Positions 43,701 to 63,441 of a stretch of DNA of 64,000 nt are shown here, one piece after another (position 1 is the first letter of the stretch; each line of letters begins with the position of its first letter). This DNA is from Arenicola marina (lineage: Eukaryota > Annelida > Polychaeta > Arenicolidae), in assembly GCA_964019135.1 (NCBI GenBank), contig OZ025263.1:38341638-38405637 (forward strand), read 5' to 3'. The notes under the pieces were generated by a model that had not been told where the DNA came from, made no database searches, and was given only the letters and a program-made list of their open reading frames with translations. A program made the position numbers and the translations under genes.

Positions 43701-46700
43701 ATGGGACTCTCCATTGTAAAAACGTCATTCTTTCATCATTACGGCGACATCTTCTCGAATACTGCAGAAGTGGCTTCTTCAAACACACCCATCATAATTT
43801 GAGCACCAAACTTGTCCTGGTGGATAGAGGTCATTTAGCATCTACCGAATCTGGACCAACGTAGAGGTCATAGAAAGCCTGGAAGTTGGGGGTTCGAAAC
43901 GGACTTTTTCAATTTTAAAGCTGTACTGTAAAGAATTGTACTGTCCGTCATGGAAGATTTGCCCATATTAATACATGACGGAATCGGAAATAGCCTTAAT
44001 TTGCTTCAAAATTCACTCCCCACTGTTTATAAGTATACGTATAGGTTAATATTCAGTTGCTGCTTGGAAAGCTAAGAAGGACGTGACCAACGAAATGTAT
44101 GTAAGCGGCATAACATAATTCAGAGAGAACAAAATATGACAAAGACTCCTCGAAAATGCATTACTAAGATTGTACAGGGACCTTGGGAAAGACCCGCTGT
44201 ATCGGAAGGTGGTGAACATTTGTGGCACTGTGAAACACGGATTCGATACACATTTAACAGTCCTGTTTATGATTGCCTCTTCATCATCACAAAGCAAAAA
44301 TGAAAATACGGTAGACTGCTTGGTTGCCTTTTCTCCAGAGTACGGTGGACTGGGTCTGGACTACACTTACATGGCGGCTATAACAGAAGAGCTAGGCTAC
44401 ATCGACTGTGGAGGCATCCCCATGGCGATAGGGGTACAGACTGACATGGCTACCCCTGCTCTTACAAGGTTGGCTCCAGTCCGGATTACGAACTTTGAGA
44501 ACGTGGTAATAATGGAACGTATGTTTCGTAAAAAAGTAGGTATCCGTATATTTTGCCTTGGTGAAAACGCGACATTAAAACTGCATTATTCGCTGTGCAC
44601 TGAGAGTGCTTAGCTTGCAATTAAGGGCGCATGCGCGTGTGTATGGCTTCTGTTTAAAGTAGGGCGGTTAGTGGGCGGTGCACCGGAGGATAAACATTTT
44701 TGAGTAATAAGTGACTAACTGTTCTAACACATTGAGCGGTCTCCCCTGTGCATAGCAGGAATAAGTGACTAACTGTTCTAACTCATTGAGCCCACTCCCC
44801 TTGGCATAGCAGTAAGAAGTGCGGAACTGTTGTAACCCATTCAGCGCACTCTCCTAGACATGGCAGTAGTAAATGACGAAATGTCTTAACCCATTGAGCC
44901 TACTCCCCTGGGCATATCAGGAATAAGTGGCGAACTGTTCTACCCCATTGAGCGCTCTCCCCTGAGCATAGCAGTAATACGTGACTAACTGTTCTATCCC
45001 AATTGAGCGCTCTCCCCTGAGCATAGCAGTAATACGTGACTAACTGTTCTATCCCAATTGAGCGCTCTCCCCTGAGCATAGCAGTAATACGTGACTAACT
45101 GTTTTACCCCATTGAACGCTTTCTCCTGAGCATAGCAGTAATACGTGACTAACTGTTTTACCCCATTGAACGCTTTCTCCTGAGCATAGCAGTAATACGT
45201 GACTAACTGTTTTACCCCATTGAACGCTTTCTCCTGAGCATAGCAGTAATACGTGACTAACTGTTCTACCCCATTGAACGCTTTCTCCTGAGCATAGCAG
45301 TAATACGTGACTAACTGTTCTATCCCGTTGAGCGCTTTCTCCTGAGCATAGCAGTAATACGTGGCGAACTGTTCTAACATATTGAGCGTACTTCGCTCAC
45401 CGCAGCAGTAATAATTGACGAAATATCCAAATTTATTGAGCGTACTTCCCTGTCATATCGGCGATGCGTAGCGAAGTGTTCTAACCTATTGAGCATACTT
45501 CCCGTGGCATGGTAGTGATAAGTAGTTAACTGTTCTGACCAGCTAACTGCTATAACCAATTAGGCGTATTTCGTAGGCATGGCAGTGACAAGTTGAAGCG
45601 CGAGTACCTGGCGCCCTCTATCGCCGGAGACATGGTGTCATGTATCGGCGTGAGCGAAGCATCGGCGGGGTCTGACGTGGCAGGTAACGGCATGGAACTC
45701 CGCAGTTAACATTGTACTTCGACGGTGACAGCTTGTCGTCATAAGTATGTTACATTGCCACATACGTATGATGCCCTTTGTAACAAGATATGTTTGCAAA
45801 GTGTGTAATGCTGTACACTATCTATTGCATTGTACACCAGCTAGTACAGTGCACAATGGGCTGTGTACATTTGGTTTTATGCTCTACATTGGTTGAGCAC
45901 TGTACCTTGGTTGTACCATCTGTATTTGTTTGTACATTGAATATGAGGGCGTGCAAGCTGCGTTGGGTTGTACAATGTTAATTAGCTTGTAAATTTTTAA
46001 TTAGCTTTGGTAGGTTGTAAACTGCACGATGGGCCTTACACTGTGCATTGGGTTGTATAGTAAACAATGGATTGTAGATTGTACATAGGTTTGTACACCG
46101 TTCGCTGTGTTATGCACTGTACAATGGGCTGTACACTTATCGTTAGGTGATATACTATACAACGGGTTACGCGCGGTATCGTGGGGCTGTATGTTGCAGG
46201 GATCAAGACGACGGCCGTGAAGAAGGGCGGTGACTACGTAATTAACGGCAGCAAGCTGTGGATCACGAATGCCTACCAAGCGGATTGGATGTGCCTCCTG
46301 GCCAACACCGGGACCGGTCAGATACACGAGAATAAGACCCTCATCGTACTACCTATGAATACTCCAGGTAAGGACTACCAAGCTCATTATAGGTACCATT
46401 ATTAACGACTGCCAGGATAATACAGATGCGCAGTTATCATAGAAGACTATAGATATAGCTTTTTTTCACTTACAAGAATCCCCCAGTGTATGTTCACCAT
46501 GTTTGGTGTACCCCGCCATCTGCCGTTGGATTGGACAGCGGCCATACACAACGCCTATCACTTTTGGCGGAGCACATGATTGGGAGATCGAACCGGAAGG
46601 TGGCCATACTCGCGATCTTCCGTGGGATGAGACGGATGAGAAGGATGAGACGCGCCAGGTTAATCTCGACGTACTCTCCCTATACGAGCTCGACCATGCT

Positions 46701-49700
46701 CCCAGACGTCACACTCCCACATGTCCGAGGCTCGAGCCGTGGCAACCGTGCAAGCACTAGCGGTCAGGCGAAAAGCGTCCCCTAGACGCTTCCGCTGCCT
46801 CGCTCATATCTCGCAGCCTTCTGTCCACACCAAACCGCCCGTTTCGGCCTAACTGGTGTGCGGAGACGACATGGACCCCCACCCTTTGCCCTATGCAAGT
46901 CATGTCTTGGCGAATGAACCACATCACAGGACCTCAAAGCGACTCAAAGTCCGGACCATCTCAGGTTTCCACAGGTTTCCTTTGTGGGAGTGCAACTTCA
47001 CGACCGCAGTAGCTACTCCTACCCCTCGCCGGATCGACGCATTGTTATCGGCAATGCAACCTTTCAGCCGCCAATGGCAGGCGCGCTATTGGGACATATG
47101 GTAATCCCTGGAGAAACTGGTGGTATGGGGTATCCTCCATGTGCGACCTCTACAGCCCCATTTCAAGGCCTGTTGGAACAAGTCCTTCAAAGCGAGATAA
47201 CATTCAGTTCCAATCAGCAACTTCATTCCGTCCTGCTCTGATGGACATCGCGCAAAATGCTCAAACGGGAGTGCCCCCACGCCCTGCCTTCCACGCTAAT
47301 CCTGTTCGCAGATGCCTGGCCACCAGGGTTGGGGGGGGGGGGGGGTCATCTGATCAGTCCGCGCGTGGCCGGAACGTGGCGTGAATGGAAGCATCGCGTC
47401 ACATCAACATACTACAGGTTGTCGGGCTCGCGGCCAAAGCGTTCACGCCAGCAGTTGTAGGTTATCGGCGGTATCAGAACGGTATAGCTTTCCAGCTACT
47501 GCCACAGCTGACAAAGCAAAAACAATGTTTTGTTCCGCAGCCATATGCGTGGGAAGACAAACATTCTGGCTGATATATCGGGGTCAGTATGTCATCCATA
47601 CCGAGTGGTCCCAGGTAGCCTCATATCTACCCAGGCCTGGGAGTGTGGGGCAGGCCCACAGTATATCACTTTGATACATCACTGAACAAAAAAGCTGGTC
47701 ATTTACGTCACTCCAGTCTACGACCCGGCTGATAGGAAGGTTCACACTCATCTTGGATCGGCCTCTGGGCTTACGCGGTTGTCCCTATTCTCGTCTACTG
47801 CTTACCAGCGGTCTGGGGAAATCCATGCTTTCGTAATCATGCTTCACAAGTGAGATTCTTCGACACTCGTCGTCTTTCCTTCCTTTGACTCTTGACTATG
47901 GCCGCCCGGTTAAAAAAATCTTCACAAAGCGCACCAGGATAATGAGCGTTTAGTGTGCCCTTAAGAGCTCTATAATACTACCTTGAGCGGGCTAGACGAT
48001 GAGGACAGAGAGGGCGACAGAAGGCTGAAAAGGGGTGAACCATGGTGGCGTCTCCCGCTGATTTCTAGTGGAAAGGGGTGAACCATGGTGGCGTCTCCCA
48101 CTGATTTCTAGTGGAAAGGGGTGAACCATGGTCGCGCCTCCTACTCCTTCCCAGTGGAAAGGGGTGAACTATGGTGGCGCCTCCTACTGATTACCTGACC
48201 AGTAGAAAGGAGTGAAACATGGTGGCGTCTCCCACTGCTTTCTATTGGAAAGGGGTGAAACATGGTCGCGCCTCTTACTGTACGCCAGTAGAAATGGGTG
48301 AACCATGGTGGCGCCTCCTACTCCTTGCCAGTAGAAAGGCGTGAAGCATGGGGGCGCCTTCCACTCTTTCCCAGTAGAAAGGGGTTAACCAAGGTGGCGC
48401 CTCCCATTCCTTCCCAGTAGAAAGGCGTGAAGCATGGGGGCGCCTTCCACTCCTTTCCAGTAGAAAGAGGTTAACCATGGTGGCGCCTCCCACTCCTTCT
48501 CAGTGGAAAGGGGTTAACCATGGTGGCGCCTCCCACTCCTTCCCTGTAGAAAGGGGTTAACCATGGTGGCGGATTCTGTTATGACGCTCGGGCTCTACCC
48601 GAAGTCTTTCATGACGCTCGGGCTCTACCTCGAGTCTCTTATGACGATCGGGCTCTATACGGAGTCTCTTATGGCGCTCGGACTCTATCCAGAGTCTGTT
48701 ATGGCGATCGTGCTCTATCAGAAGTCTCTTATGGGGCTCGGGCTCTATCCGGAATCTCTTATGGGGCTCGGGCTCTATCTGGAGTCTGTTTTGGCGCTCG
48801 GGCTCTATCCGGAGTCTATTTTGGCGCTCGGGCTCTATCCGGAGTCTGTTTTGGCGCTCGGGCACTATCTGGAGTCTCTCATTTCGCTCGGGCTCTATCC
48901 GGAATCTGTTATGACGCTCGGGCTCTATTCGGAGTATCTTATGGCGCTCGGGCTCTATCCGCAGTCTGTTATGGGGCTCGGGCTCTATCCAGAATCTCAT
49001 GGACGTTTTTAAAATCTGCGTACCCGAACATTTGTGGATAGAAATAAAAACAACAGTTTTAACCTGCTAAGTTTCCAGTGGCATTGTCCGCCATTTTGAC
49101 AAAATCGCCGTCAGTGGTCAAATCGGACTTGGCACTATTATCTAAATTCGATCAGACATGCAGTTCGGACAAATTTGATGCTTTAATTCCTAGAAAATGC
49201 TTTATTTTGGGTTTCTCCGCTGGATTACTAGGCATTATCCTGAATCGGAAAATTGACAAGCTGGGAATGCATTGCTCTGACACGGCCGAAATCTTCTTCG
49301 AGGACGTGCACGTCCCTCTGACCCACGCCATTGGGCATGAGGGCCGGGGATTCATGTACCAAATGGAACAGTTCCAGTGGGAAAGGATCTTTGCTGGCCT
49401 CTCAGGTAAGCTGATAGCTGACTGATAGACCAAAACGTCGATACCTGTACTGCGTTGTGCCCTGTTTTGGCCGGAATAATAAGAGAGCAACAATGCCGGT
49501 ATCTCGGCAAGAAAAACGTGAGGCGTGTTTCTGCTCAGAGACCATATGTATGCAAGTCATACTTTTTTACTTAATTGTTATTTTAACATGTATACATTAG
49601 ATTTAATGTCTTCATTTAATATTTCGCAGGGAAAACCTAAAAGCGAGCGCATCTTTTGTGCGATGGATTAGAAGTTATACTGTTATAGGCAACAACACTA

Positions 49701-52700
49701 AAGCACCAAATTACCTGGTTAATCTAGGAAGAATGGCAAGTTTTCAGGTTTCATTTGCAGCCCATCTATAATAATCCCTGACTATCTCTGTGTGTTATCT
49801 CTAGAATATTAAAACATAAGGATATTACAGATCCCAAAGATGTTTAGAAAGAACAGGTGAACTTTATTTATAGTCTAGAACACTGAGGATTTTTCTTCGG
49901 TGGTAAGTACATGTATATTGGACCCGGGTAAGAGGACGTCACAAAGGATAATGATCTCACACATTGTGATCGGGTGGATGTTAAAATTATACGTTTCTAG
50001 AAATGTCAAATCATTTAATAAGCGATCGCGAAGTTCTGAGAAGGCTGAACATTGAACATTGTCCTCGGACTGAGATAAGCAGAACTCACAACTGTTATAC
50101 ATTTCCTGTCATTGGCTCTCCCCGACCTGAATAACGTAGCTTTCACCGCAGCCATCTTCATAAGTGCGTTATGAACCATCACTTATGTATTATCTGAACA
50201 AGGTCTTAACGGTTGCAGTTTTGATATTTTATTAGATGATATAATGTTAAAAGATTAATAATATTAATTAATTAATAATATCTGAACAACGTCTTAACGG
50301 TTGCAGTTTTGATATTTTATTAGATGATATAATGTTAAAATTAAGATTTTGCCGCAATGTTCTACTACAACAGTTCCTTGGCCAAATCATCACAGTAGAC
50401 CAGTCTAAAATCGCTTCTAATTTTCAGCGTTGACGCCGCTACAGAAGATACTTGACCAAACGGTAGAGTACACCAGTCAAAGACTTATCTACGGTAAGCC
50501 GCTGCTGGCCAACCAGACGGTCCACTTCCGCCTAGCCGAGTTGCAGACGGAGTTGGAGCTCCTGCGCTCCATTCTCTACCGGGCTATAGGTGTGTCCATT
50601 CTCTAATTTGGATATCTCTCTATATATCATTTTATTCACTGGCTAACATGTATTACCACGCGTTTTATATAATAAACACTGATAGTGGTGCTAGGCTTTT
50701 ATATCTATATCAGGCCTATAGAGATTGTATTATATTTGTTTTCTGTCTGATTATAAACATTTCCTGAAATAATTGCAAACTGTATCTGGGGAAAGTTCCA
50801 GTGCATTATACCGACTTATTGGGTTCCGTTTTCCAGCATTTAACCCTTGGCTCTCTAGCTTTTGTATAATTTAAAGTTTCAGAGTTATTTTGTGGCATTT
50901 GCGCTTATGACTGTAGACGAATCTGTGACCGGCAGAGCTTGCCGTAATCGCCAGTGACTAGTTTCCGAGCTTGCCTTTTTCAAGTGTAATTTCGTGAAGC
51001 AAGGTTCGTCGTGGTGGACTTCTATTTGTCGCAAAACGCGTCCACCTTCTCATAACGGCCACCCTCGCATTAAGTGTTTTGGTCACCTGAGAGCCTAACG
51101 GCACGTGGGTCGGTAGTTCGAGCCCTGCTGTGGCCATGTCTGTGTGGTCGCAGGATAAAGATCCCATGTCTTTCTTCGTAAAGAGTAGGGGGTTACCCTT
51201 GGGGAGATGGCTCCACTCTCCCTTCCTTCTCCCATTGACGCGTCCTGTAAAACCAACCAACAAACCATAACGGCCACCCCAAGAATTCGAATCTATGCAA
51301 AAAGCCTTCATGTCCCTTTTGCAAATATAGTATACACAATATCATATATTTTCATTATATACACAGTTTGGTTCCTAGCATGCAAAATATTACTTTCGTC
51401 ACGGTCAAATCCAAAGACAACAATTGTTTCCACGTAATATTTACAATAACAGATGTTTACATATTTCCGGCCTGGTGGTATCAATTAAACAACCTTTTCG
51501 GCCTGGCGGTATCACTTAGCCTTCTCGGCCTGGCGGTATCGCTTGGTCAGTTTTTCTCGGTATTACTTAGTCAGCCTTCTCGGCCTGGCGGTATCGCTTA
51601 TCCAGCCTTCTCGGCCTGGCGGTATCGCTTATCCAGCCTTCTCGGCCGGGCGGTATCGCTTATCCAGCCTTCACGGCCTGGTGGTATCGCTTATCCAGCC
51701 TTCTCGGCCTGGCGGTATCGCTTATCCAGGCTTCTCGGCCTGACGGTATCGCTTATCCAGCCTTCTCGGCCTGGCGGTATCGCTTATCCAGCCTTCTCGG
51801 CCGGACTGTATCGCTTATCCAGCCTTCTCGGCCTGGTGGTATCGTTTATCCAGCCTTCTCGGCCTGGGGGTATCGCTTAGTCAGCCTTCTCGGCCTGGCG
51901 GTACCGCTTATCCAGGCTTCTCGGCCTGACGGTACCGCTTATCCAGCCTTCTCGGCCTGGCGGTATCGCTTATCCAGCCTTCTCGCCCTGGAGGTATCGC
52001 TTGGTCAGCCTTCTCGGCCTGGCGGAATCGCTTATCCAGCCTTCTCGGCCTGGCGGTATCGCTTAGTCAGCCTTCTCGGTCTGGCGGTATCGCTTGGTCA
52101 GTCTTCTAGGCCTGGCGGTATCGCCTAGTCAGTCTTCACTGCCTGGCGGTATCGCTTAGTCAGCCTTCTCGGCCTGGCGGTATCGCTTAGTCAGCCTTCA
52201 CGGCCTGGCGGTATCGCTTGGTCAGTCTTCTAGGCCTGGCCGTATCGCTTAGTCAGTCTTCACGGCCTGGCGGTATCGCTTAGTCAGCCTTCTCGGCCTG
52301 GCGGTATCGCTTAGTCAGCCTTCTCGGCTTGGCGGTATCGCTTAGTCAGCCTTGTCGGCCTGGCGGTATGGCTTGGTTAGTCTTCTCTCCCTGGCGGTAT
52401 CGCTTAGTCAGCCTTCTCTCCCTGGCGGTATCGCCTAGTCAGCCTTCTCTCCCTGGCGGTATCGCTTAGTCAGCCTTCTCTCCCTGGCGGTATCGCTTAG
52501 TCAGCCTTCTCGGCCTGGCGGTGTCGCTTGGTCAGCCTTTATAGCCTGACGGTGTCGCTTAGTCAGTCTTCTAGGCCTTGCGGTATCGCTTAGTCAGCCT
52601 TCTGGGCCTGGCGGTATCGCTTAGTCAGCCTTTACGGCCTGGCGGTATCGCTTAGTCAGTCTTCTCGCCCTGGCGGTATCGCTTATCCAGCCTTCTCGGC

Positions 52701-55700
52701 CTGGCGGTATCGCTTAGTCAGCCTTTACGGCCTGGCGGTGTCGCTTAGTCAGTCTTCTCGGCCTTGCGGTATCGCTTAGTCAGCCTTCTCGGCCTGGCGG
52801 TATCGCTTAGTCAGCCTTTACGGCCTGGCGGTATCGCTTGGTCAGTCTTCGAGGCCTGGCGGTATCGCTTAGTCAGCCTTCATGGCCTGGCGGTGTCGCT
52901 TAGTTAGTCTTCTAAGCCTGGCGGTATTGCTTAGTCAGCCTTTACAGCCGGGCGATATCGCTTATCCAGCCTTCACGGCCTGGTGGTATCGCTTATCCAG
53001 CCTTCTCGGCCTGGCGGTATCGCTTATCCAGGCTTCTCGGCCTGACGGTATCGCTTATCCAGCCTTCTCGGCCTGGCGGTATCGCTTATCCAGCCTTCTC
53101 GGCCGGGCTGTATCGCTTATCCAGCCTTCTCGGCCTGGTGGTATCGCTTATCCAGCCTTCTCGGCCTGGGGGTATCGCTTAGTCACCCTTCTCGGCCTGG
53201 CGGTACCGCTTATCCAGGCTTCTCGGCCTGACGGTATCGCTTATCCAGCCTTCTCGGCCTGGCGGTATCGCTTATCCAGCCTTCTCGCCCTGGAGGTATC
53301 GCTTGGTCAGCCTTCTCGGCCTGGCGGTATCGCTTATCCAGCCTTCTTGGCCTGGCGGTATCGCTTATCCAGCCTTCTCGGCCTGGGGGTATCGCTTAGT
53401 CACCCTTCTCGGCCTGGCGGTACCGCTTATCCAGCCTTCTTGGCCTGGCGGTATCGCTTATCCAGCCTTCTCGGCCTGGGGGTATCGCTTAGTCACCCTT
53501 CTCGGCCTGGCGGTACCGCTTATCCAGGCTTCTCGGCCTGACGGTATCGCTTATCCAGCCTTCTCGGCCTGGCGGTATCGCTTATCCAGCCTTCTCGCCC
53601 TGGAGGTATCGCTTGGTCAGCCTTCTCGGCCTGGCGGTATCGCTTATCCAGCCTTCTTGGCCTGGCGGTATCGCTTACTCAGCCTTCTCGGCCTGGCGGT
53701 ATCGCTTGGTCAGTATTCTAGGCCTGGCGGTATCGCCTAGTCAGTCTTCACTGCCTGGCGGTATCGCTTAGTCAGCCTTCTCGGCCTGGCCGTATCGCTT
53801 AGTCAGTCTTCACGCCTGGCGGTATCGCTCAGTCAGCCTTCTCGGCCTGGCGGTATCGCTTAGTCAGCCTTCTCGGCTTGGCGGTATCGCTTAGTCAACC
53901 TTGTCGGCCTGGCGGTATGGCTTGGTTAGTCTTCTCTCCCAGGCGGTATCGCTTAGTCAGCCTTCTCTCCCTGGCGGTATCGCTTAGTTAGCCTTTATAG
54001 CCTGACGGTGTCGCTTAGTCAGTCTTCTAGGCCTTGCGGTATCGCTTAGTCAGCCTTCTGGGCCTGGCTTTATCGCTTAGTCAGCCTTTACGGCCTGGCG
54101 GTGTCGCTTAGTCAGTCTTCTAGGCCTTGCCGTATCGCTTAGTCAGCCTTCTCGGCTTGGCGGTATCGCTTAGTCAGCCTTGTCGGCCTGGCGGTATGGC
54201 TTGGTTAGTCTTCTCTCCCTGGCGGTATCGCTTAGTCAGCCTTCTCTCCCTGGCGGTATCGCTTAGTCAGCCTTCTCGGCCTGGCGGTGTCGCTTGGTCA
54301 ACCTTTATAGCCTGACGGTGTCGCTTAGTCAGTCTTCTAGGCCTTGCGGTATCGCTTAGTCAGCCTTCTGGGCCTGGCGGTATCGCTTAGTCAGCCTTTA
54401 CGGCCTGGCGGTATCGCTTGGTCAGTCTTCTCGCCCTGACGGTATCGCTTATCCAGCCTTCTCGGCCTGGCGGTATCGCTTAGTCAGCCTTTACGGCCTG
54501 GCGGTGTCGCTTAGTCAGTCTTCTAGGCCTTGCCGTATCGATTAGTCAGCCTTCTCGGCCTGGCGGTATCGCTTAGTCAGCCTTTACGGCCTGGCGGTAT
54601 CGCTTGGTCAGTCTTCGAGGCCTGGCGGTATCGCTTAGTCAGCCTTTACGGCCTGGCGGTGTCGCTTAGTCAGTCTTCTAGGCCTTGCCGTATCGATTAG
54701 TCAGCCTTCTCGGCCTGGCGGTATCGCTTAGTCAGCCTTTACGGCCTGGCGGTATCGCTTGGTCAGTCTTCGAGGCCTGGCGGTATCGCTTAGTCAGCCT
54801 TCATGGCCTGGCGGTGTGGCTTAGTCAGTCTTCTAAGCCTGGCGGTATTGCTTAGTCAGCCTTTACAGCCGGGCGATATCGCTTATCCAGCCTTGTCGGC
54901 TTGGCGGTGTCGCTTATCCAGTCTTCTCGGCCTGGCGGTATCGCTTAGTCAGCCTTCACGGTCTGGCGGTATCGCTTTTCCAGCCTTCTCGGCCTAGCTA
55001 AATCGCTTAGTCAATCTTCTACGCCTGGCGGTATCGCTTATCAAGCCTTCTCGGCCTAGCGTTATCGCTTAGTCAGTCTTCTCGGTCTGGCGGTATCGCT
55101 CAGTCAGCTTTTCTCGGTATCACTTAGTCAGCCTTCTCGGCCTGGCGGTGTCACTTAGTCAGCCTTTTCGGCCTGGCGGCATCACTTACCCAGCCTTCTC
55201 GGCCTGGCGGTATCACTTAGCCAGCCTTCTCGGCCTGGCGGTATCGCTTGGTCAGCCTTCTCAGCCTGGCGGTATCGCTTAGTGAGCTTGTCTCGGTATC
55301 ACTTAGTCAGCCTTCTCGGCCTGGTGGTATCACTTAATCAACCTTCTCGGCCTGGCGGTATCACTTAGCCTTCTCAGCCTGGTGGTATCGCTTAGTCAGC
55401 CTTCTCGGCCTGGCGGTATCGCTTGGTCAGTTTTTCTCGGTATCGCTTAGTCAGCCTTCTCGGCCTGGGGATATCGCTTAGTCAGCTTTCTCGGCCAGGC
55501 GCTATCGCTTAGTCAGCCTTCTCGGCCTGGCGGTATCGCTTAGTCAGCCTTCATGCCCTGGCGATATCGCTTGGTCAGTCTTCGAGGCCTGGCCGTATCG
55601 CTTAGTCAGCCTTCTCGGCCTGGCGGTATCGCTTAGTCAGCCTTCTCGGCCTGGCGGTATCGCTTAGTCAGCCTTCATGCCCTGGCGATATCGCTTGGTC

Positions 55701-58700
55701 AGTCTTCGAGGCCTGGCCGTATCGCTTAGTCAGCCTTCTCAGCCTGGCGGTGTCGCTTATCCCGCCTTCTCGGCCTGGCGGTATCGCTTAGTCAGCCTTC
55801 TCGGCCGGGCGGTATCGCTTATCCAGGCTTCTTGGCCTGGTGGTATCGCTTATCCAGGCTTCTCGGCCTGGTGGTATCGCTTATCCAGCCTTCTCGGCCT
55901 GGGGGTATCGCTTGGTCAGCCTTCTCGGCCTGGCGCTATCGCTTAGTCAGCCTTCTCGGCCTGGCGTATCGCTTGGTCAGTCTTCTCGCCTTGGTGGTAT
56001 CGCTTAGTCAGCCTTCACGGCCTGGCGGTGTCGCTTAGCCAGTCTTCTAGGCCTGGCGGTGTCGCTTGGTCAGTCTTCGAGGCCTGGCGGTATCGCTTAG
56101 TCAGCCTTCATGGCCTGGCGGGGTCGCTTAGTCAGTCTTCTAAGCCTGGCGGTACCGCTTAGTCAGCCTTTACGGCCTGGCGATATCGCTTATCCAGCCT
56201 TGTCGGCTTGGCGGTGTCGCTTGGTCAGCTTTCTATGCCTGGCGGTGTCGCTTAGTCTTCTCGGTCTGGCGGTATCGCTTAGTCAGCTTTTCTCGGTATC
56301 ACTTAGTCAGCCTTTTCGGCCTGTCGGCATCACTTAGCCAACCTTCTCGGCCTGGCGGTATTACTTAGCCAGCCTTCTCGGCCTGGCGGTATCGCTTAGT
56401 GAGCTTTCCTCGGTATCACTTAGTCAGCCTTCTCGGCCTGGTGGTATCACTTAATCAACCTTCTCGGCCTGGCGGTATCACTTAGCCTTCTCAGCCTGGT
56501 GGTATCGCTTAGTCAGCCTTCTCGGCCTGGTGGTATCACTTAATCAACCTTCTCGGCCTGGCGGTATCACTTAGCCTTCTCGGCCTGGTGGTATCGCTTA
56601 GTCAGCCTTCTCGGCCTGGTGGTATCGCTTGGTCAGTTTTTCTCGGTATCACTTAATCAGCCTTCTCGGCCTGGCGGTATCACTTAGTCAGCCTTCTGGG
56701 CCGGGCGGTATTGCTTATCCAGCCTTCTCGGCCTGGCGGTATCACTTAGTCAGCCTTCTCGGCCTGGCGGTATCACTTAGTCAGCCTTCTCGGCCTGGCG
56801 ATATCACTTAGTCAGCCTTCTCGGCCGGGCGGTATTGCTTATCCAGCCTTCTCGGCCTGGCGGTATCGCTGAGTCAGCCTTCGCGGCCTGGCGGTATCGC
56901 TTAGTCAACCTTCTCGGCCTGGCGGTATCGCTTAGTCAACCTTCTCAGCCTGGCGGTATCGCTTAGTCAACCTTTTCGGCCTGGCGGTATCGCTTAGTCA
57001 ACCTTCTCGGCCTGGCGGTATCGCTTAGTCAACTTTATCGGCCTGGCGGTATCACTTAGCCAGCCTTCTCGGCTTGGCGGTATCGCTTGATCAGCCTTCA
57101 CAGCCTGGCGGTGTCGCTTTGTCGGCCTTCTCGGCCTGGCGATATCGCTTAGCCAGGCTTCGGCCTCGGATTATCGCTTGGTCAGCCTTCTCGGCCCGAA
57201 ACGTCATACCACACGGCCTGCGCCATCTTGGAGCCAATGTACAGTTTCACACTGCCTTGTCTATTGCATTGCATTGTCTATTGACGGCGGATATGAATAT
57301 ATAACGCAGTAACTCTTTTCCGTTATATTTCAGATATATTAACATAAGTGCTTTCATAAACGATGGAATATCGGATATGCCCACCCCGGCGGTATCCCTT
57401 GGAACCTTCTACTCATGGAAACCTTAGATTTTCTTATTTTTCCTGCGAGTTTCGGCCTCAAAGAAGTCACTAATTTTCAATTGTGGGCGATAACCGGGAT
57501 GGTTGTAGTCAAACTTTAAACTGCGTAGTTCGTTCTACCAAGGTCTGAAGTTTTTGTCACTGTGACGTTTTGGGTACTAACAAACGTATACGTCGCCTTT
57601 CTAACGTTTTGCCCGTACGTATCACGGCCCAAATGGAATTTCTGCGAATGCATGTATCAGTTTTGGTAGTTATCGAGAGAGGATATTTCTCAGACGCTTA
57701 TACATTTTAGTGACTGCCTTTAGACAGGGAAAAAGCAAAGACATTGATCTAATGTAAGGGAAAATTTTTTCGGTCGTCTGCAGCTGGATAAGCAGTGGCC
57801 AATCACCCGAAACATACATGTCACGATGTGTGTTTACGTATATGATTAAGACCTGCACTATAGAAAGAGAGACAAAGGGACGAGGGAAGTTTCATATGAA
57901 CATTTTCCTCACAAGGAAGCATTACCAGACTGCACTAACCACTACTAACGTAACCTGCTAATTTATCCTGCAGAGTAGCATTCGAGGCACGTATAGGTCG
58001 CCAAAACACGGGCTTCAATATACCCTTAAATATATATGTATTTAGTTTCAACTTAGATAAAAAGAGAACATGATAAAGATACCTAGGACTTCGTCCTTAC
58101 ATGACGAGACCATATCCGGATTAGTGGTCATGTTAGAACCTATATGAAAAGTAATTGTTCAATGAAAATGTAAACTATTTATGTGGTTTCACGTTCACCA
58201 TGTAAGTGTTGTTTCAAAAATGTTTCAACCTTAAATCTGCTCTATTACATATTGTGTGTATTGTTGTTTGTTTAATGGTAACAGAGCGAAAGAAGTAATA
58301 TGAATATACATAAAACTGAAACAGATAATAACCCTTTTGAACAAAACTGTTTAAACTCTTTGTTCTAGTTGCATTTCATTCTGTTTCTGTCGTGATCGCC
58401 TTCTTAATTAAATTAATGTAGATTAATGTAGATTATGAACACAATTTGATAGTGCTGAATATTGTTTGTCGCAGAAAATTAGTTCAAGACAATATTTACT
58501 TCTATTATTTTAGTCCTCTTGGTTCCCATTTGTTACAGCTATGAGCCTCCTAGGTCAAGATGTAACCTACCTGGCTTCCATGGCTAAGTTGAAGGCTGGA
58601 AGGCTGTCTCGTGAGCTCACTGATGCTTGTCTGCAATACTGGGGCGGTATGGGCTACACCAGTGAAGTCCTGGTTAGTCGTATGTACAGGTAAGACTGGT

Positions 58701-61700
58701 ACACCAATACAACGAAGGGCTGGTTAGTCATATATAAATATAAGACTACACCATGAAGGTCTGGTTAGTCGTATGTACAGGTAAAGCTAGACTACACCAG
58801 GAAGGTTTGGTTAGTCGTATGTACAGGTAAAGTTAGACTACACCTGGAAGATCTGGTTAGTCGTATGTACAGGTAAAGGTAGACTACACCAGGAAGATCT
58901 GGTTAGTCGTATGTACAGGTAAAGCTAGACTACACCAGGAAGATCTGGTTAGTCGTATGTACAGGTAAAGCTAGACTACACCAGGAAGATCTGGTTAGTC
59001 GTATGTACAGGTAAAGCTAGACTACACCAGGAAGATCTGGTTAGTCGTATGTACAGGTAAAGTTAGATTGCACCAGAAAGGTCTGGTTTGATCGTTTACA
59101 TGTCAGACTGGACTACACCAGCAAGGTCCGGTTACACACTACACCGAGAATGTCTGGCTAGTGGCATGTACAGATAAGACTGGACTACACCAGTGAGGTC
59201 TGGTTAGTCGTTTTGTACAGGTAAGACTCAACGAAGGGCTCGTTAGTCATATATAAGTACAAGATTGGACTACACTAGGAAGGTCTGGTTGGTAGCATGT
59301 GCAGATAAGACTGGACTACACTAAGAAGGTCTGGTTGGTGGAATGTGTAGATAAGACTGGACTACACCAGGAAGGTCTTGTTAGTCGTATCACAGAGTAG
59401 ATATTATACAGATGGCCAAGCCGACCGCAGCGCCATCCGACGGTCAGCGTGTGGTTTTTGATTTTCGATTTTCTTGATTTTCTGCAGTGAACGGCTTGCA
59501 TGAATGTAATATTTTTAAAGGGAATATAGCAAGTGTCATGATTATACCCAATTATCCTTGAAAACTGGGTCACAACACCAATTTGATTTGATGTGCCAGA
59601 CTCTTGCATTATCGCTCACGCGCCCACTGACAAACAACGCTGAACAGACTGAGACTGTCACTCTCAGTGACACTGACACTGTGACAGTGTTGTGGCAGCT
59701 GTGAAACGGGCACTGGTTCAGCGCCTGAAAGTCAGAGAGGACAGTCAGTAACAGTGGTTGTGGAGCGCCCATTGCTATTAACTGTAAACAATAAATCGTA
59801 GTGACACTGTCACTGACACAAATGACAGCCTCACTGAGACTGACACACTCATCAGCTGATCTGCTGATACAGTGACACTGATAGTGATAACGACAGCCTC
59901 TGTCACAGCCTCTGTCACAGCCTCTGTCAAAGCCTCTGTCGCAGGCTCTGACTGTCACAGCCTCTATCGCAGGCTCTGACTGTCACAGCCACTGACAAAT
60001 TGACTGACACTGACAGCCCCAATCGACTCACGGTCACTTACACTGATACATTGATAGTGACCAAGTGACAACAAGATTTCAATTGGCACTATATCATGTC
60101 TAGTATAGATGATACTGACAGGATTTAATTTCACAATATTATTTTTTAGAAAGTACATTACAACACATGGCCTTTAGTGTAGGCCCTAATAAGCTGTCTA
60201 TGCTGGTACTTGCGCCAAGGTTAACCTGTCTTGTGTGGATGTGTAGCTGTAACATCTTGTTTTCAGGCTACAGCACTGGAGGTGTAAGGCAATGCTTGCA
60301 TGATGGGACTTTCATAATTATTTTTACATATACAATATCTAGGGAATCCTTTTGTACAGCCATAGACATAATTAAGAAGGGTAGTGAATTAGCAGTTTTA
60401 TTGGGATAGCTGGGCTACAACTAGCTCTGAAGTCAAGATAAATTCAAGCGTCGCTACCTATCAGCCAAGGGTAGCAAGGCCTTGGTTCTTCCGGGCTAGG
60501 CTACAACCTGACAAGAAAAATGCTAGGGTTGCAGTGGCAAGCGATAGGCATGCTGTTTTTGGACTATATCCTCCTAAATACGGGATAAGCCTATATTGGT
60601 TAGCTAGCGGTATATCCGATATACCTCAATGTTAATTGTATTATGACCAAATCATAATTGATACTGGAATACTAAATTGAGATATTCTATCAACCCCAGA
60701 AATAAAGTTGCCCCTGCTAAACATTATGTTTTGTAGACTTTGCAGAATATGACATTACTCCATACATTATTCTATTTTGGTTTTTATTATTATATTTAAA
60801 GTTGCATGTGGAGTTGTTTCGCTGTTTTTGAATGCCAAATTTGCGTATAAGAACACAGACCTAAGGCCTTAAGGTTCACAACAGACAATAAACACCTACC
60901 ATATCGCTCACCAATTATCTGCCAATGAGCAAAACATTTCAAATTCATGAATTGTCCGCCACAAAAATGAAAACTTGTGCTGATTTGAAACGTCATAAAC
61001 GTGTGTACACAAGTCGTTAACCGGTGCCACCAACAGGGGGGCCCAAGCGCTAAATTTTATAAGACAATAGAAGCGTCCGGAGCGCCACTTTTTCTTTGGC
61101 GGTGCCCGTTGACACTGCTTGTGGTCAAAGGTAACACTTCCTGTTTATGTTTATTTTGAAACAGCCGTTGCAACGGTCAGCTCCACATGTAACTTTAATG
61201 TTACATTTTTATGCTACTATGCATGGTGATAGATCTAAATAGGTATACATTAGTTGAGCTATCTGAATGATGATCACTATAATACATTATATGACTAGAT
61301 ATTCACAGTTTACCCATATGTGATGCACAATTCAGGCCAAGAGCATTCTGGTCTTTAATATTATATAGGGTATTATTATTATTGTACTTTGAATAAATAC
61401 TTGCATTGATTTACTAATGAGTAAAATACATGATTTCCATCTAAAATATTTTGTGAGGCATAACAAAAAAAGCTATGCACAGCCTATTTTGAAAGACATT
61501 TAATAAAATGTAATACCCTGGTAATATTTCACCATTCAGGAGATTTGATTTATTTGAAACAGAGACATTCAAACAATCAATTTAAAATAATATAATGGTT
61601 AGCAGCTGGAATATTGGTTAGCAAGAATCCTCTAGATCATGTTTCTAGGTCACAAGTTACAAGCCTGTGTTACCTGTATGCTCCTGTTACAGAGTATGTA

Positions 61701-63441
61701 TTTTGTGAAATATATTCTCTGTTAATAATTAGCATTCATTAAATCTGGTTCTATAAAACATTACCAATGTTCATACCACCCCAACATATATTAGAAAAAA
61801 ATTGGTACTACTACTGTAGAATGTTAGCATTAATAACCGTGTATTTTTCCATATTTCTTGATATCATATATCCTACCCTGGTACATACAATTTTTGGCAT
61901 AAACCAATCCAAAGATATTTTCTTACAATTCAGTATTATGCACAATTTTGTAGATACTGAGAAAAAAAAAATGTTTGATATGTTTTCCAAATTCAGCAAA
62001 ATGTTGAGAAACAGGCAAAGCTTAGATCTAAGCTAAATTCTTGGATCCATTTGACTATTATTAAGTCAGTTCATCACGTAATAATGCAATAGATATTCCA
62101 TTTATAATTTTATATAGATAGATCTACTTCCTAAATCAGCAATTAATGTGGTGCCTCGCACTCGTGGTAAATGTTGATTTTGCTGACATTTTCTGTTGTT
62201 GAAACATATTAATATCCGGTGTCGAGGTCATATTAAAAATGACAAGATTCAATGTGGTTCTAGAAGATATACCGGTAATCTGGTTGAGTTGCTGCTTCCG
62301 CATCCATAAATGTGGCTTGTCTGCTTGTGTATAAATTCTGCCTATCAATCCCCACGACAATATATATGGACTGAACAGGCATAGATGTAATCGTTTTTTC
62401 AACATCGTATTTCTTGACTCAACACTTTTGACAGTGAGGCTGATGCAGCGCTTTCTTGTTATTCCAAGATCCGTTATGAGTCATTTAGAAATGTTCTTGT
62501 GTGCTGAAAGAATATTTGAACTCGATACGTCAATATTGATCAAATCCATTCACCTCGCATGCGGTCGTGACTCACGAGTCATGAGTTATAGGCACCTATC
62601 GCGTTATGAGAGACTGTACCATATTTCTATACCCAATACAAAAGCAAACATTTAATGCTCCATATATCCATATGGCTTGACACCACATATAGCTGAATTC
62701 GTTTGGATTGAGCAAAACTGTATGGGCAGAGTTTGCTTATGTGCCAGATACCCCATGAACGTAGACCGGCAGTCGTCGTTCATTTAAATAAATGTTGAGT
62801 AAACTTTAGGGTATTATGCATTGACAAAAATGTTATCGTGAGTAAACAACATTCGAGTTCTTTTGGAAGCCGAAATAATGATTGGTCTGATCGTAGACCT
62901 CAGGCATTTATTGAAGTATCCCGCACTGCTGTTCTGCCTCGTTCGCCCCGTTTTTGACGAAGCGCGGCACAGACGAAACCATTATTCTATCCGACCACAC
63001 GCTCACCGCTTGGAGCGCCACCGTCGCTCGGCTGTGCGCGCGGTTACGTAGGAGCCAATGAGAGTGGGCCCTCTTTATAAATACCTATTCTGTGGTCGTA
63101 TGTACAGGTAAAGTTAGTCTGCACCAGAAAGGTCTGGTTACTGGCATGGACAAGTCAGACTGGACTACACCAGAAAGGTCTGATTAGTGGCATGGACAAG
63201 TCAGACTGGACTATACCAGAAAGGTCTGGTTAGTGGCATGTACAAGTCCGACTGAACTATACCAGAAAGGTCTGGTTGGTCTTGAATGTCATTCTGTGTT
63301 GTCACTTGTACAATACATGCTGTTTCTTGTGGCAGGGACATGCGGCTGGCGTCCATTGGAGGCGGAGCAGATGAGGTCATGCTGGGCATTATCTCCAAGT
63401 TAATGGGTACGATGCCAAAACTTCGGACAAAGAATGCGTGA
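25566..63441 (+). CDS. Mitochondrial acyl-CoA dehydrogenase (ACAD family, acdh-6-like), nine exons
   Basis: The exons are 25566-25769, 42324-42444, 44339-44468, 45577-45683, 46200-46367, 49232-49405, 50428-50589, 58539-58689 and 63336-63441. They total 1323 nt and encode 440 residues, the normal ACAD length. Every junction is GT-AG and phase-consistent. Residues 1-27 form an Arg-rich leader ending RLFS, typical of mitochondrial import. ACAD signature 1 is GVSEASAGSDVAG (176-188). Signature 2 is Q-x2-GG-x-GY..E..R..D, spanning the exon 8/9 junction. Glu294 (QWERIFAGL) aligns with the catalytic Glu of long-chain and isovaleryl-CoA dehydrogenases. The alternative MCAD-type position is Gly (IGGGADEV). 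The enzyme is expected to be FAD-dependent and to introduce a C2-C3 double bond in an acyl-CoA, passing electrons to ETF. Its chain-length preference is unknown. The closest family by recall is 'probable acyl-CoA dehydrogenase 6'. Confidence 0.93.
25770..26197. other. Start of intron 1, nothing recognised
   Basis: Intron 1 runs 25770-42323 (16.6 kb). This first part shows no repeat or exon-like segment that could be supported. Confidence 0.5.
26198..26382 (-). mobile_element. tRNA-derived SINE, copy A
   Basis: On the - strand the segment has an A-box-like GGCCTAATGTGTAAGGTGC and a B box GGTTCGAATCC, followed by a GC-rich tail ending GGGACCAGAAATAC. It is about 90% alike to copy B 320 bp downstream in the same orientation, so the pair may be a dimer or a local duplication. 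Confidence 0.8.
26518..26702 (-). mobile_element. tRNA-derived SINE, copy B
   Basis: Same family and orientation as copy A (B box GGTTCGAATCC, GGCCTAATGCGTAAGGTGC). The 135-bp spacer between the copies is not repeated. Confidence 0.8.
26703..28572. other. Intron 1, AT-rich, nothing recognised
   Basis: No exon-like segment consistent with the flanking dehydrogenase phases and no clear repeat were found. Confidence 0.5.
28573..28700. repeat. Terminal fragment of a dispersed DNA-transposon-like repeat
   Basis: GTAATTTTTGGGGTATAAGT and GGTGTATAAGTCGCACCCA resemble the ends of widespread 'tataagtcgcacc' MITEs of animal genomes. Only one end was recognised. Confidence 0.4.
29060..29860 (+). repeat. 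Copy of the dispersed hairpin-element family
   Basis: It aligns with the interior of 6768-9017. Shared stretches include TAGGTCAAAGGTCAAGGTCA, GAAGATATCGCTCT, AAAAATATGAATG, the CRE-like CGCTGACGTCACTTC and CAGTATGTTCCTATCTTACT then TCCGGTTCC. It has no long ORF. It lies within a possible larger interrupted element (28773-30505; CAGTGTCAA at the left, TTGACACCCTG at the right). Confidence 0.7.
29882..30157 (+). mobile_element. tRNA-derived SINE (second family), full copy
   Basis: The body is 29889-30150, flanked by CATCATA (29882-29888 and 30151-30157). A box GATAGCTCAGTGGGCTAGAG and B box GGTTCGAGCCC are present. The tail contains CTTCTCCCATTGACGCGA and ends AACCAACCAACC. Related copies lie at 42471-42535 and 51064-51265. 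Confidence 0.85.
30860..35190 (+). mobile_element. Decayed multi-domain repeated element of unassigned family
   Basis: Coding-like sequence for about 4.3 kb on the + strand, interrupted by several breaks. Conserved landmarks appear in order. A CLFC Cys pair comes near the start, then ADNVDHNIRTLDG followed by FNTFHGMG (about 32065-32125), then FLGCIGHLM (about 32640). A PIN/FEN1-like acidic region follows (EDTDLLVLL, about 34425) with HAVAGCDTT (about 34600). A C-terminal cysteine-rich CXC-type cluster closes it (about 35045-35190: RCNCKNDC, RRCTCRK, CGECRGESCTN). From memory, this combination recurs as multicopy hypothetical proteins in many invertebrates; the mobile-element interpretation and function are inference. 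It sits wholly inside intron 1 of the dehydrogenase. No terminal repeats were identified. Confidence 0.6.
35191..37480. other. Intron 1, nothing recognised
   Basis: AT-rich sequence. A short ORF at 35739-35954 has no recognised similarity. No exon of the host gene is expected here because exon 1 and exon 2 join without a gap in the protein. Confidence 0.45.
37490..37615. repeat. Two-copy tandem duplication of about 62 bp
   Basis: CCGTTAGGGCCCGTTAGGGT then TGAGGTCG.GAGGGCT.TGCATCAGGGCTA occurs twice in a row, differing at a few bases. Confidence 0.85.
38083..38235 (-). pseudogene. Short coding-like fragment, possible transposase N-terminus
   Basis: Fifty codons on the - strand: MRARLFVINDSEGEEEEVEE, then FRQPEHVFCRRTYRFEPPRL and a stop. 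The acidic patch followed by an Arg/Tyr-rich segment resembles the N-terminus of PIF/Harbinger-type nucleases, but no catalytic residue is present. This is a weak call. Confidence 0.25.
38820..39745 (-). repeat. Dispersed-family copy with terminal hairpin
   Basis: Read on the - strand it carries the same AGGTCAAAGTCAAGGTCACA block as 6955 and 29185. It ends (+ strand right side) in a perfect 9-bp-arm hairpin CCTGTTACC...GGTAACAGG (39705-39733), followed by ACGGACAACTAG. Repeated TGACCTTGACCT motifs lie at about 39200-39245. Confidence 0.55.
39746..40896. other. Intron 1, nothing firm
   Basis: A GC-rich patch CCGCCCCGCTCGCTCCGCTC followed by GCGGGACGTCTAGCG at about 39895 may be the end of a repeat. 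Nothing else was recognised. Confidence 0.4.
40897..41026. repeat. 15-bp minisatellite
   Basis: About eight units of TGGTGAGGCGGTGAC or a close variant. Confidence 0.85.
41027..42323. other. End of intron 1
   Basis: The stretch contains a G16-type run (42018-42034) and no supportable ORF. The acceptor of exon 2 is TTATTTCAG. Confidence 0.5.
42324..42444 (+). CDS. Dehydrogenase exon 2
   Basis: Residues 69-108 plus one base: LIETEINPHVDAWEAAKGFP, then AHEVFKKLGDGGFLG and ANKPT. This is the classic ACAD N-terminal helical region (..EI.P..d.WE..g.fP.......G..GfLG...P). The donor G|GTGTGT is less ideal than the others but fits the phase. Confidence 0.93.
42471..42535 (+). mobile_element. SINE fragment, 3' part of the second family
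   Basis: CCTTCTCCCATTGACGCGAT then GTGACTAGAAATGGTTAAAG and CGTCCTGAAT match the tail of 29889-30150. The head is missing. Confidence 0.75.
42798..42890 (+). mobile_element. SINE fragment, tail of the first family
   Basis: CTGGGGCATGTTT and the following GGTTTCTTCGCCGAATT...CACAAGA align with the 3' half of the SINE at 7553-7736. The tRNA-like head is absent. Confidence 0.5.
43270..43755 (+). repeat. Dispersed-family copy in intron 2
   Basis: Shared blocks with 6768-9017 and 29060-29860: GTAAGTTTTAGAATGT, GAAGATATCGCTCTG, AAAAATATGAATG, GTCACGATGACGTCA, CCTACCTTACTTCCGGTTCC. No ORF. The flanks 42891-43269 and 43756-44338 hold nothing recognised. Confidence 0.7.
44339..44468 (+). CDS. Dehydrogenase exon 3
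   Basis: The acceptor is CCTTTTCTCCAG. Residues 109-151: EYGGLGLDYTYMAAITEELG, then YIDCGGIPMAIGVQTDMATP, then ALT. It forms part of the helical domain leading to the FAD site. The donor AAG|GTTGGC is weak. It is preferred because it rebuilds TRHGSDKLK with exon 4, as the family requires. Confidence 0.9.
44690..45595. repeat. 55-bp minisatellite overlapping the exon 4 acceptor
   Basis: About 16 units: GTGACTAACTGTTCTATCCC, then AATTGAGCGCTCTCCCCTGA, then GCATAGCAGTAATAC. Seven central units are at an exact 55-bp spacing. The final, most diverged unit is the intron-exon boundary itself: CTGCTATAACCAATTAGGCG, then TATTTCGTAG|GCATGGCAGTGACAAGT. The unit therefore contains about 30 bp of intron end and about 17 bp of exon start. 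Confidence 0.9.
45577..45683 (+). CDS. Dehydrogenase exon 4 (FAD-site signature)
   Basis: Residues 152-187 plus one base: RHGSDKLKREYLAPSIAGDM, then VSCIGVSEASAGSDVA. ACAD signature 1 is intact. The start at 45577 (acceptor TTTCGTAG) is chosen over the AG at 45583-45584 because it supplies the conserved R-x-GS before the Lys-rich turn. The donor is G|GTAACG. Confidence 0.9.
45780..46185. repeat. Degenerate TTGTACA-rich repeats in intron 4
   Basis: Irregular recurrences of TTGTACA and GTACAATGGGCTGTACA-like strings, roughly every 22-26 bp, fill most of this 516-bp intron. It is an old, decayed minisatellite. Confidence 0.6.
46200..46367 (+). CDS. Dehydrogenase exon 5
   Basis: Residues 188-243: IKTTAVKKGGDYVINGSKLW, then ITNAYQADWMCLLANTGTGQ, then IHENKTLIVLPMNTP. 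WITN is the conserved strand next to the flavin. This exon begins the beta domain. The donor G|GTAAGG is strong. Confidence 0.95.
46480..47900 (+). mobile_element. Fossil retroelement, DIRS-like (tentative)
   Basis: Short frames recall the RT/RNase H part of DIRS-type retroelements, for example PMAGALLGHMV (about 47075) and SRHINILQVVGLAAKAFTP (about 47395-47450). The copy is clearly broken, with several interruptions, and looks old. No terminal repeats or recombinase were recognised. A G16 run lies at about 47329-47345. It lies inside intron 5. Confidence 0.3.
48026..48556. repeat. 43-bp minisatellite in intron 5
   Basis: About 12 units: GAAAGGGGTGAACCATGGTG, then GCGTCTCCCACTGATTTCTA, then GTG. 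The unit contains CCATGG and GGCGCC in many copies. Confidence 0.9.
48557..49005. repeat. 30-bp minisatellite open on both strands
   Basis: Fifteen units of TTATGGCGCTCGGGCTCTAT then CCGGAGTCTG. Because 30 is a multiple of three, a 10-residue repeat is open on the + strand (LGLYPESVMA type) and on the - strand (RIEPERHNRL type) for almost 150 codons each. No start context, splice link or homolog supports translation. Confidence 0.9.
49232..49405 (+). CDS. Dehydrogenase exon 6 (catalytic Glu)
   Basis: Residues 244-301: GIILNRKIDKLGMHCSDTAE, then IFFEDVHVPLTHAIGHEGRG, then FMYQMEQFQWERIFAGLS. KIDKLGM.cSDTAEifFeDV is the conserved ACAD middle stretch. Glu294 in QWERIF corresponds to the active-site base of long-chain (human precursor Glu291) and isovaleryl enzymes. 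Acceptor GGATTACTAG, donor G|GTAAGC. Confidence 0.95.
49406..50427. other. Intron 6 with a two-copy duplication
   Basis: A segment (ATCTGAACAAGGTCTTAACG, then GTTGCAGTTTTGATATTTTA) is duplicated at about 50193-50252 and 50279-50338, separated by an AT-rich linker. Nothing else was recognised. Confidence 0.7.
50428..50589 (+). CDS. Dehydrogenase exon 7
   Basis: Residues 302-355: ALTPLQKILDQTVEYTSQRL, then IYGKPLLANQTVHFRLAELQ, then TELELLRSILYRAI. It is the start of the C-terminal helical domain (Y...R..fGkpl...Q.v...lAel.t...). Acceptor AATTTTCAG, donor G|GTGTGT. Confidence 0.95.
51051..51278 (+). mobile_element. SINE (second family), 5'-truncated copy
   Basis: The body is 51064-51265, flanked by a perfect 13-bp duplication CATAACGGCCACC (51051-51063 and 51266-51278). 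It retains the B box region (GGTAGTTCGAGCCC) and the CCAACCAACAAAC tail but lacks the A box. Truncation with a target duplication is the mark of LINE-driven insertion. Confidence 0.87.
51465..57200. repeat. 31-bp minisatellite, about 185 copies, in intron 7
   Basis: Consensus GTCAGCCTTCTCGGCCTGGC then GGTATCGCTTA, for 5.7 kb. Variants include TATCCAGCC for TAGTCAGCC and shortened TTTTTCTCGGTATC units. Blocks of several hundred bp recur (for example around 51640-51990 and 52970-53310), showing higher-order duplications. It is open in long + frames because the unit lacks stops; this is not evidence of a gene. Confidence 0.95.
57201..58538. other. End of intron 7, nothing recognised
   Basis: Unique-looking AT-rich sequence up to the exon 8 acceptor CATTTGTTACAG. 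Confidence 0.5.
58539..58689 (+). CDS. Dehydrogenase exon 8
   Basis: Residues 356-405 plus two bases: AMSLLGQDVTYLASMAKLKA, then GRLSRELTDACLQYWGGMGY, then TSEVLVSRMY. ACAD signature 2 begins at QYWGGMGY. The donor CAG|GTAAGA is strong. The last 38 bases of this exon reappear as the core of the following minisatellite. Confidence 0.95.
58690..59395. repeat. 46-bp minisatellite seeded by the exon 8 donor
   Basis: Units: AGACTACACCAGGAAGATCT, then GGTTAGTCGTATGTACAGGT, then AAAGCT. CAG|GTAAAG or AGGTAAAGG recurs at 58781, 58827, 58873, 58919, 58965, 59011 and 59057, exactly 46 bp apart, with a further CAG|GTAAGA at 59221. The exon 8 end reads GGCTACACCAGTGAAGTCCT then GGTTAGTCGTATGTACAG|GTAAGA, so the unit is a copy of the exon-intron junction. 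Confidence 0.95.
59396..63096. other. Interior of intron 8, mostly unannotated
   Basis: 59600-60010 holds irregular CACTGACACTGTGACAGT and CACAGCCTCTGT repeats. The rest is AT-rich and without recognised genes. A GC-rich patch with AGCCAATGAG and TTTATAAATA lies at 63000-63090. Since matching 46-bp units sit on both sides, this interior may have been inserted into, or moved with, the array. Confidence 0.45.
63097..63282. repeat. Second block of the 46-bp minisatellite, before exon 9
   Basis: Four units like CTGGACTACACCAGAAAGGT then CTGGTTAGTGGCATG. The first still carries ATGTACAG|GTAAAG (GT at 63108) and aligns best with the unit at about 59047. Confidence 0.9.
63336..63441 (+). CDS. Dehydrogenase exon 9 (C-terminus)
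   Basis: Residues 406-440 and the TGA stop: RDMRLASIGGGADEVMLGII, then SKLMGTMPKLRTKNA. It completes signature 2 and carries GGGADEV, where medium-chain enzymes have the catalytic Glu and this protein has Gly. The acceptor is TTTCTTGTGGCAG. Confidence 0.94.

Follow-up and report, generated by a model that had tools for sequence, protein, structure and literature searches.

A minisatellite across the edge of an acyl-CoA dehydrogenase exon in Arenicola marina and its ladder of predicted splice donors

The human gene IFI6 (6-16/G1P3) reportedly has a minisatellite with multiple splice donors, to go by the title under which Turri et al. 1995 is cited, and it is an arrangement of this sort, a tandem array of 46-bp units at the end of the penultimate coding exon of an acyl-CoA dehydrogenase gene of the polychaete Arenicola marina, that is described here. 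The DNA analysed, hereafter the window, is a stretch of 64,000 nucleotides (assembly GCA_964019135.1, contig OZ025263.1, positions 38,341,638 to 38,405,637 of the forward strand), and positions are counted from its first letter. The closest described systems are the “mirages” of amphioxus, i.e., tandem repeats that lie over exon-intron boundaries and many, not all, of which contain AG/GT (PMC3087553; this and the other papers are cited from the portions consulted). Data on Adh3 and reverse transcription PCR of globin transcripts suggest that mirages do not interfere with regular splicing, and their lengths vary between haplotypes and somatically (PMC3087553). A mirage in troponin C and similar repeats in PGBD5 have also been described (PMC3902484). 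Tandem repeats have altered the structure of human paralogues, in some cases with the addition of introns (PMC2812944), the minisatellite of human IFI6 is reported to give several donors, which are used (PMC4526556), and intron gain by tandem genomic duplication of AGGT has been described (PMC4974935).

Judged from its sequence, the A. marina array is very probably a boundary-spanning minisatellite of the mirage kind, a tolerated by-product of tandem duplication beside which most transcripts would still be spliced at the first donor. It shares with the amphioxus mirages (Adh3, BflGb6, BflGb9 and troponin C, with the similar repeats of PGBD5) repeats that span the boundary, many of them with AG/GT, and that are homogenised in the interior and divergent towards either end. 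It differs from them in the gene concerned, in its unit of 46 bp (10-72 bp in Adh3 and 150-160 bp in the globins), in nearly filling its intron and being split by a transposon, and in its host, the reported hosts of mirages being Cephalochordata. Searches of the genome for the GFP family and for molluscan haemocyanins, both run without a positive control, had no hits. As in human IFI6, repeat units add donors after the true one, but the downstream units are reported to be used there, whereas the donors here are predicted and their use would give a stop codon. The likeness to intron gain by AGGT duplication is that a duplicated stretch with an AG/GT boundary lies inside a gene; there, however, a new intron is formed, whereas the evidence here points to the growth of an existing one. 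No case of such repeats in an acyl-CoA dehydrogenase was found among the titles listed by the literature searches, no search by that gene name having been made.

The exon in question, called exon 8 in the numbering of an earlier note on this DNA, which is taken over as is, occupies 58539-58689 on the plus strand (151 nt, with a phase 2 end at ..YTSEVLVSRMYR), as indicated by its open reading frame, its splice signals, PF00441 and the acyl-CoA dehydrogenases of the PDB. The 46-bp unit consists of sequence from both sides of the authentic boundary between exon 8 and intron 8. The earlier note had recognised that the unit joins the end of the exon to the start of the intron, but gave the exon part as 38 bases; it is 36 (58654-58689), followed by about 10 intron bases. 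Tandem Repeats Finder (TRF) reported a 46-bp array at 58654-59134, a degenerate continuation at 59138-59385 and a further 46-bp array at 63122-63277. With a wrap-around parse, the start of the first of these places the founder copy of the unit at 58654-58699. Seven near-identical units, recognised from their donor positions and the unit parse, follow at 58746-59067, each with CAG/GTAAAG (the slash marks the splice junction) at exact 46-bp steps, and then, at 59068-59390, come older, diverged units, one of which carries CAG/GTAAGA at 59221 (TRF, unit parse and pairing with U1). The remainder of the array, supported by TRF, the unit parse and a genome search, lies at 63102-63277 and contains an eighth CAG/GTAAAG, with its G at 63108. 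All of these features are on the plus strand.

The seven units of the GTAAAG type have a mean pairwise identity of 95.7%, and 3 of their 21 pairs are identical, whereas they share 74% identity with four older units, which among themselves reach 81% (two fragmentary rows, at 58650 and 59113, are left out of these figures). The array thus shows concerted evolution within and divergence at its edges. Around 59185-59270, in the part that holds the donor at 59221, the exon end occurs a second time together with the first intron stretch (shared stretch CAACGAAGGGCT.GTTAGTCATATATAA), a sign that duplication took place at least twice.

That the resemblance between exon 8 and the array might be no better than chance was a concern named in the earlier note. 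The alignment of the two scored 55, whereas 500 dinucleotide shuffles of exon 8 averaged 17.8 and never exceeded 29. The genome searched comprises 867 Mb in 762 contigs, and the window is the final 64 kb of one of them, contig C18. A genome-wide query of exon 8 with its donor gave nine matches, namely itself and eight array copies (E 1.7e-7 to 4.6e-5), and a query of two units gave nine matches, all at the exon 8 edge or inside intron 8. The unit had no match outside this locus, a strong rather than absolute result, since the search skipped very common words and scored only the best candidates. Searches with the unit and with exon 8 also indicated that the locus is present as a single copy in the assembly. 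The exon copy of the unit encodes YTSEVLVSRMYR, which lies within a stretch conserved in the acyl-CoA dehydrogenases of distant organisms, and for this reason the exon would be the older copy and the direction of copying from exon to array. The array units contain insertions and deletions and sit in the intron; the first of them is the exon edge itself, and the copies extend from it into the intron only. That the exon 8 edge is the source of the array, as the earlier note had proposed, is well supported by this conservation and by the placement of the units, both read from this one genome.

The two parts of the array are separated by a DNA transposon of 3,704 bp (59391-63094, plus strand) with terminal inverted repeats beginning CACAGARTAG, which lies inside one 46-bp unit. 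It was delimited by its inverted ends (CACAGAGTAGATA-TTATA versus CACAGAATAGGTATTTATA) and by other copies in the genome, and is flanked on the plus strand by a target-site duplication, GTCGTAT, at 59384-59390 and 63095-63101. Related copies occur on other contigs, and in the best of the right-end matches the similarity stops at 63094-63096. Of four related copies that were fetched, three have 7-bp duplications by eye (TCCCTAC, GTAGTAC and ATAGTAC) and one (L059) does not. The four target duplications seen all end in TAC or TAT. When the transposon and one duplication are taken out, a gap-free 46-bp unit is restored, and as this split unit carries GTAAAG, the insertion would postdate the origin of the GTAAAG type. 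The intervening transposon, with its inverted ends and 7-bp duplication, rules out that the repeats at 63122 are a separate array. The earlier note had overlooked the half beyond the transposon, with its eighth CAG/GTAAAG. Intron 8 measures 4,646 bp with the transposon and 935 bp without it and one target duplication; in the latter state the array reaches to 58 bp short of the acceptor, and nearly all of the intron is repeat.

The authentic 5' splice site of exon 8 (58690-58695, plus strand) is CAG/GTAAGA, with its G at 58690. Behind it, CAG/GTAAAG recurs at 58781, 58827, 58873, 58919, 58965, 59011 and 59057, i.e., as the seven successive donors, spaced by exactly 46 bp, of the earlier note. 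The U1 genes of this genome start ATACTTACCTG (three loci were read and 42 matches listed), and AUACUUACCUG was used as the U1 5' end. (Among the matches listed, 41 U1 genes with one and the same score form a tandem array at G000:C12:556678-593202, in which the spacing is mostly 616 bp.) Over the 114 GT dinucleotides of exon 8 and intron 8 without the transposon, the duplex energies were -11.0 kcal/mol for the true donor and for 59221, -8.3 for the seven ladder sites and 63108, and -6.6 for the next best. The seven lack the G at position +5 and pair 2.7 kcal/mol more weakly than the true donor, so that the description of the repeated sites as equally good applies to 59221 and not to them. In a background of 1,395 GT dinucleotides (window 40001-58500 and the transposon), 4 reach -11.0 and 14 reach -8.3, while among 14 donors picked by eye beside related exons, eight are weaker than -8.3 and one is equal to it. 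The ladder sites are thus plausible yet, with the exception of 59221, second-rate donors beside the true one, as far as pairing can tell. A ladder of this 9-mer is in itself not special in this genome, since within the first 100 places listed there are other arrays, on contig C1, with CAG/GTAAAG in regular steps of 60, about 30 or about 26 bp; the genome holds 3886 forward and 4782 reverse occurrences, compared with 3924 and 3870 of the reversed pattern.

Each downstream CAG/GT donor would read ATG TAC AGG TAA, with the TAA directly after the exon 8 frame, as the earlier note had worked out from the sequence. Its further point, that such a donor would remove exon 9, does not follow, as exon 9 would stay in the mRNA and be preceded by the stop codon. 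For the donors up to 59221, the distance from the TAA to the last junction ranges from 88 nt for the first competitor to 528 nt for 59221. The rule for nonsense-mediated decay sets this distance at about 50-55 nt, and the stops made by the downstream donors lie beyond it.

In the history that we favour, a tandem duplication would have taken in about 46 bp across the 3' end of exon 8, with 36 bases from the exon and 10 from the intron, and the unit would then have been copied outwards into intron 8, presumably by slippage or unequal exchange, until the intron was almost all array. One sub-lineage, the GTAAAG type, expanded later, and the transposon split the array, two steps that can be read from the sequence. 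The first donor is probably used in most transcripts, because it keeps an 8-base match to U1 and its exon is of ordinary length, and leakage to later donors would yield a decay-prone mRNA with a stop codon rather than a new protein. Several points weigh against this reading. The ladder's -8.3 kcal/mol equals or beats 9 of the 14 by-eye donors beside related exons and 59221 pairs as well as the true donor, which makes some use of later donors plausible; U1 pairing is, moreover, just one component of donor choice, and the order of events is drawn from a single genome. The pairing strength of the ladder lends some weight to the proposal that the array is a working brake, in which splicing leaks downstream, the stop-containing mRNAs are degraded and array length sets the amount of enzyme, as does the presence after the true donor of eight CAG/GTAAAG and one CAG/GTAAGA, each followed by a TAA at least 88 nt before the last junction in the donors measured, and the report that downstream repeat units of human IFI6/6-16 serve as donors (PMC4526556, in the portions consulted). 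We nevertheless regard such a brake as unlikely: the seven nearest competitors are without the +5 G and correspondingly weaker than the true donor, splicing is described as normal for the amphioxus mirages (PMC3087553 and PMC3902484, in the portions consulted), and that all the recent units have a donor is what recent copying produces and does not speak for selection.

A different history would make the repeats the origin of intron 8 itself, by the AG/GT duplication model. Without its transposon the intron is almost wholly array, 9 of the 26 PF00441 matches in the genome cross model position 126, the site of intron 8, without an intron, this route was proposed for globin introns (PMC3087553), and in human paralogues internal tandem repeats have given rise to novel introns (PMC2812944, both in the portions consulted). 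The 3' side of the intron, however, gives this origin no support: against both unit and array, neither the acceptor stretch (63278-63336) nor exon 9 scores above the shuffles, and the unit carries GTAAGACTGG and not GGACATGCGG, the start of exon 9, from which the intron seems to have been already present when the array arose. The comparison of paralogues cannot separate gain from loss. We consider a birth of the intron from the array quite improbable. We find it scarcely credible that the unit is a scattered satellite or a mobile element that inserted next to exon 8 and resembles it by convergence. The genome is certainly rich in minisatellites, with arrays covering 29% of the window (TRF calls merged by hand), but among the best candidates, which were those scored, matches to the unit are confined to this locus, on which ground a satellite or mobile origin is rejected, and the similarity to the exon is far above that of the shuffles. 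Seven other arrays of the 24 counted in the window were compared with five exons, and none resembled them above shuffles; in each of the 35 comparisons two or more of the 40 shuffles scored as high. Our preference remains for a mirage-like array that grew from the exon edge, a reading also supported by the existence of further exon-edge arrays in this genome.

The gene that carries the array lies on the plus strand, and its product is assigned to the acyl-CoA dehydrogenases by profile matches that fall in the order PF02771 (window 44323-44469), PF02770 (46184-46378) and twice PF00441 (50424-50588 and 58550-58690). The last exon (exon 9), whose coding part is 63336-63441 on the plus strand, completes an R and continues with DMRLASIGGGADEVMLGIISKLMGTMPKLRTKNA and a stop codon. 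Joined to exon 8, it matched 48 distinct PDB sequences (E of 0.001 or less), and the two exons match the acyl-CoA dehydrogenases of the PDB jointly, both alignments inspected spanning the part from exon 8 and the part from the last exon. The sequence Q-YW-GGMGY-TS-E-VLVS-R-MYR/D fits what we take to be the acyl-CoA dehydrogenase signature 2, and its final D is encoded in the last exon, in keeping with the earlier note, which had put the end of the signature there. Two very large minisatellites also lie in the window, one between the PF00441 exons (51468-57196; 31 bp x 187) and one at 15365-20028 (28 bp x 167).

The genome gave 61 matches to three acyl-CoA dehydrogenase families (26 + 11 + 24), 33 of which were examined, together with the last exon of the gene described here, making 34 exons (5 in the window, and 12 and 17 elsewhere); their ends were called by eye from reading frames and splice signals and are provisional. 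Arrays that include coding bases, seven distinct arrays in all, touch 9 of these 34 exons (9 of 68 edges), at a donor, an acceptor or a stop codon. At the locus L023 (G000:C19:843928-847110, minus strand), a 43-bp unit, GACTGTGTCCAG/GTCAGT..., from the exon end of another acyl-CoA dehydrogenase is present in 18 copies, 17 of which keep CAG/GTCAGT, i.e., a second and larger donor ladder. No array of this type was present in the six other cluster copies examined (L024-L029). On the same contig, L027 and L028 have units of 83 and 77 bp, respectively, that cover a 3' splice site and roughly the first twelve bases of the exon. Four arrays, those of L018 with L019, L020, L075 and L076, take in the final codons and the stop codon of acyl-CoA dehydrogenase genes and continue on the 3' side. 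A small array at L021 (18 bp, 2 copies), 7 bases past its match, was left out of the count. By a rough comparison with the 29% of the window that is array, the share of 9 in 34 need not exceed that of random placement, and no claim is made that exon edges attract arrays. The bolder proposition, that exon edges recurrently found minisatellites, at donors, acceptors and stops and with growth away from the coding side, and that the ladder is a length-variable switch between full-length and decayed mRNA that differs between individuals or cells, strikes us as a long shot on the present sequences.

Two observations on the assembly stand apart from the array. At G000:C19:845428-1296080, ten acyl-CoA dehydrogenase matches per domain lie on both strands within 0.45 Mb. 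On contigs C443, C465, C504, C330, C652, C497 and C232, protein kinase matches continue across TAG and TAA codons in frame, an indication that these high-numbered contigs belong to an admixed organism with a ciliate-like code.

The single locus is an example of a class that had already been described in the amphioxus mirages, with human IFI6 as a second precedent; it is ordinary in kind but unusually complete, a mirage-type array that takes up almost the whole of its intron. It offers a clean natural test of the spliceosome's choice of the first donor out of ten, and of the way in which an exon can seed repeats that come to occupy an intron. Together with L023, L027, L028, L018 with L019, L020, L075 and L076, it makes testable the rule that arrays grow away from the coding side.

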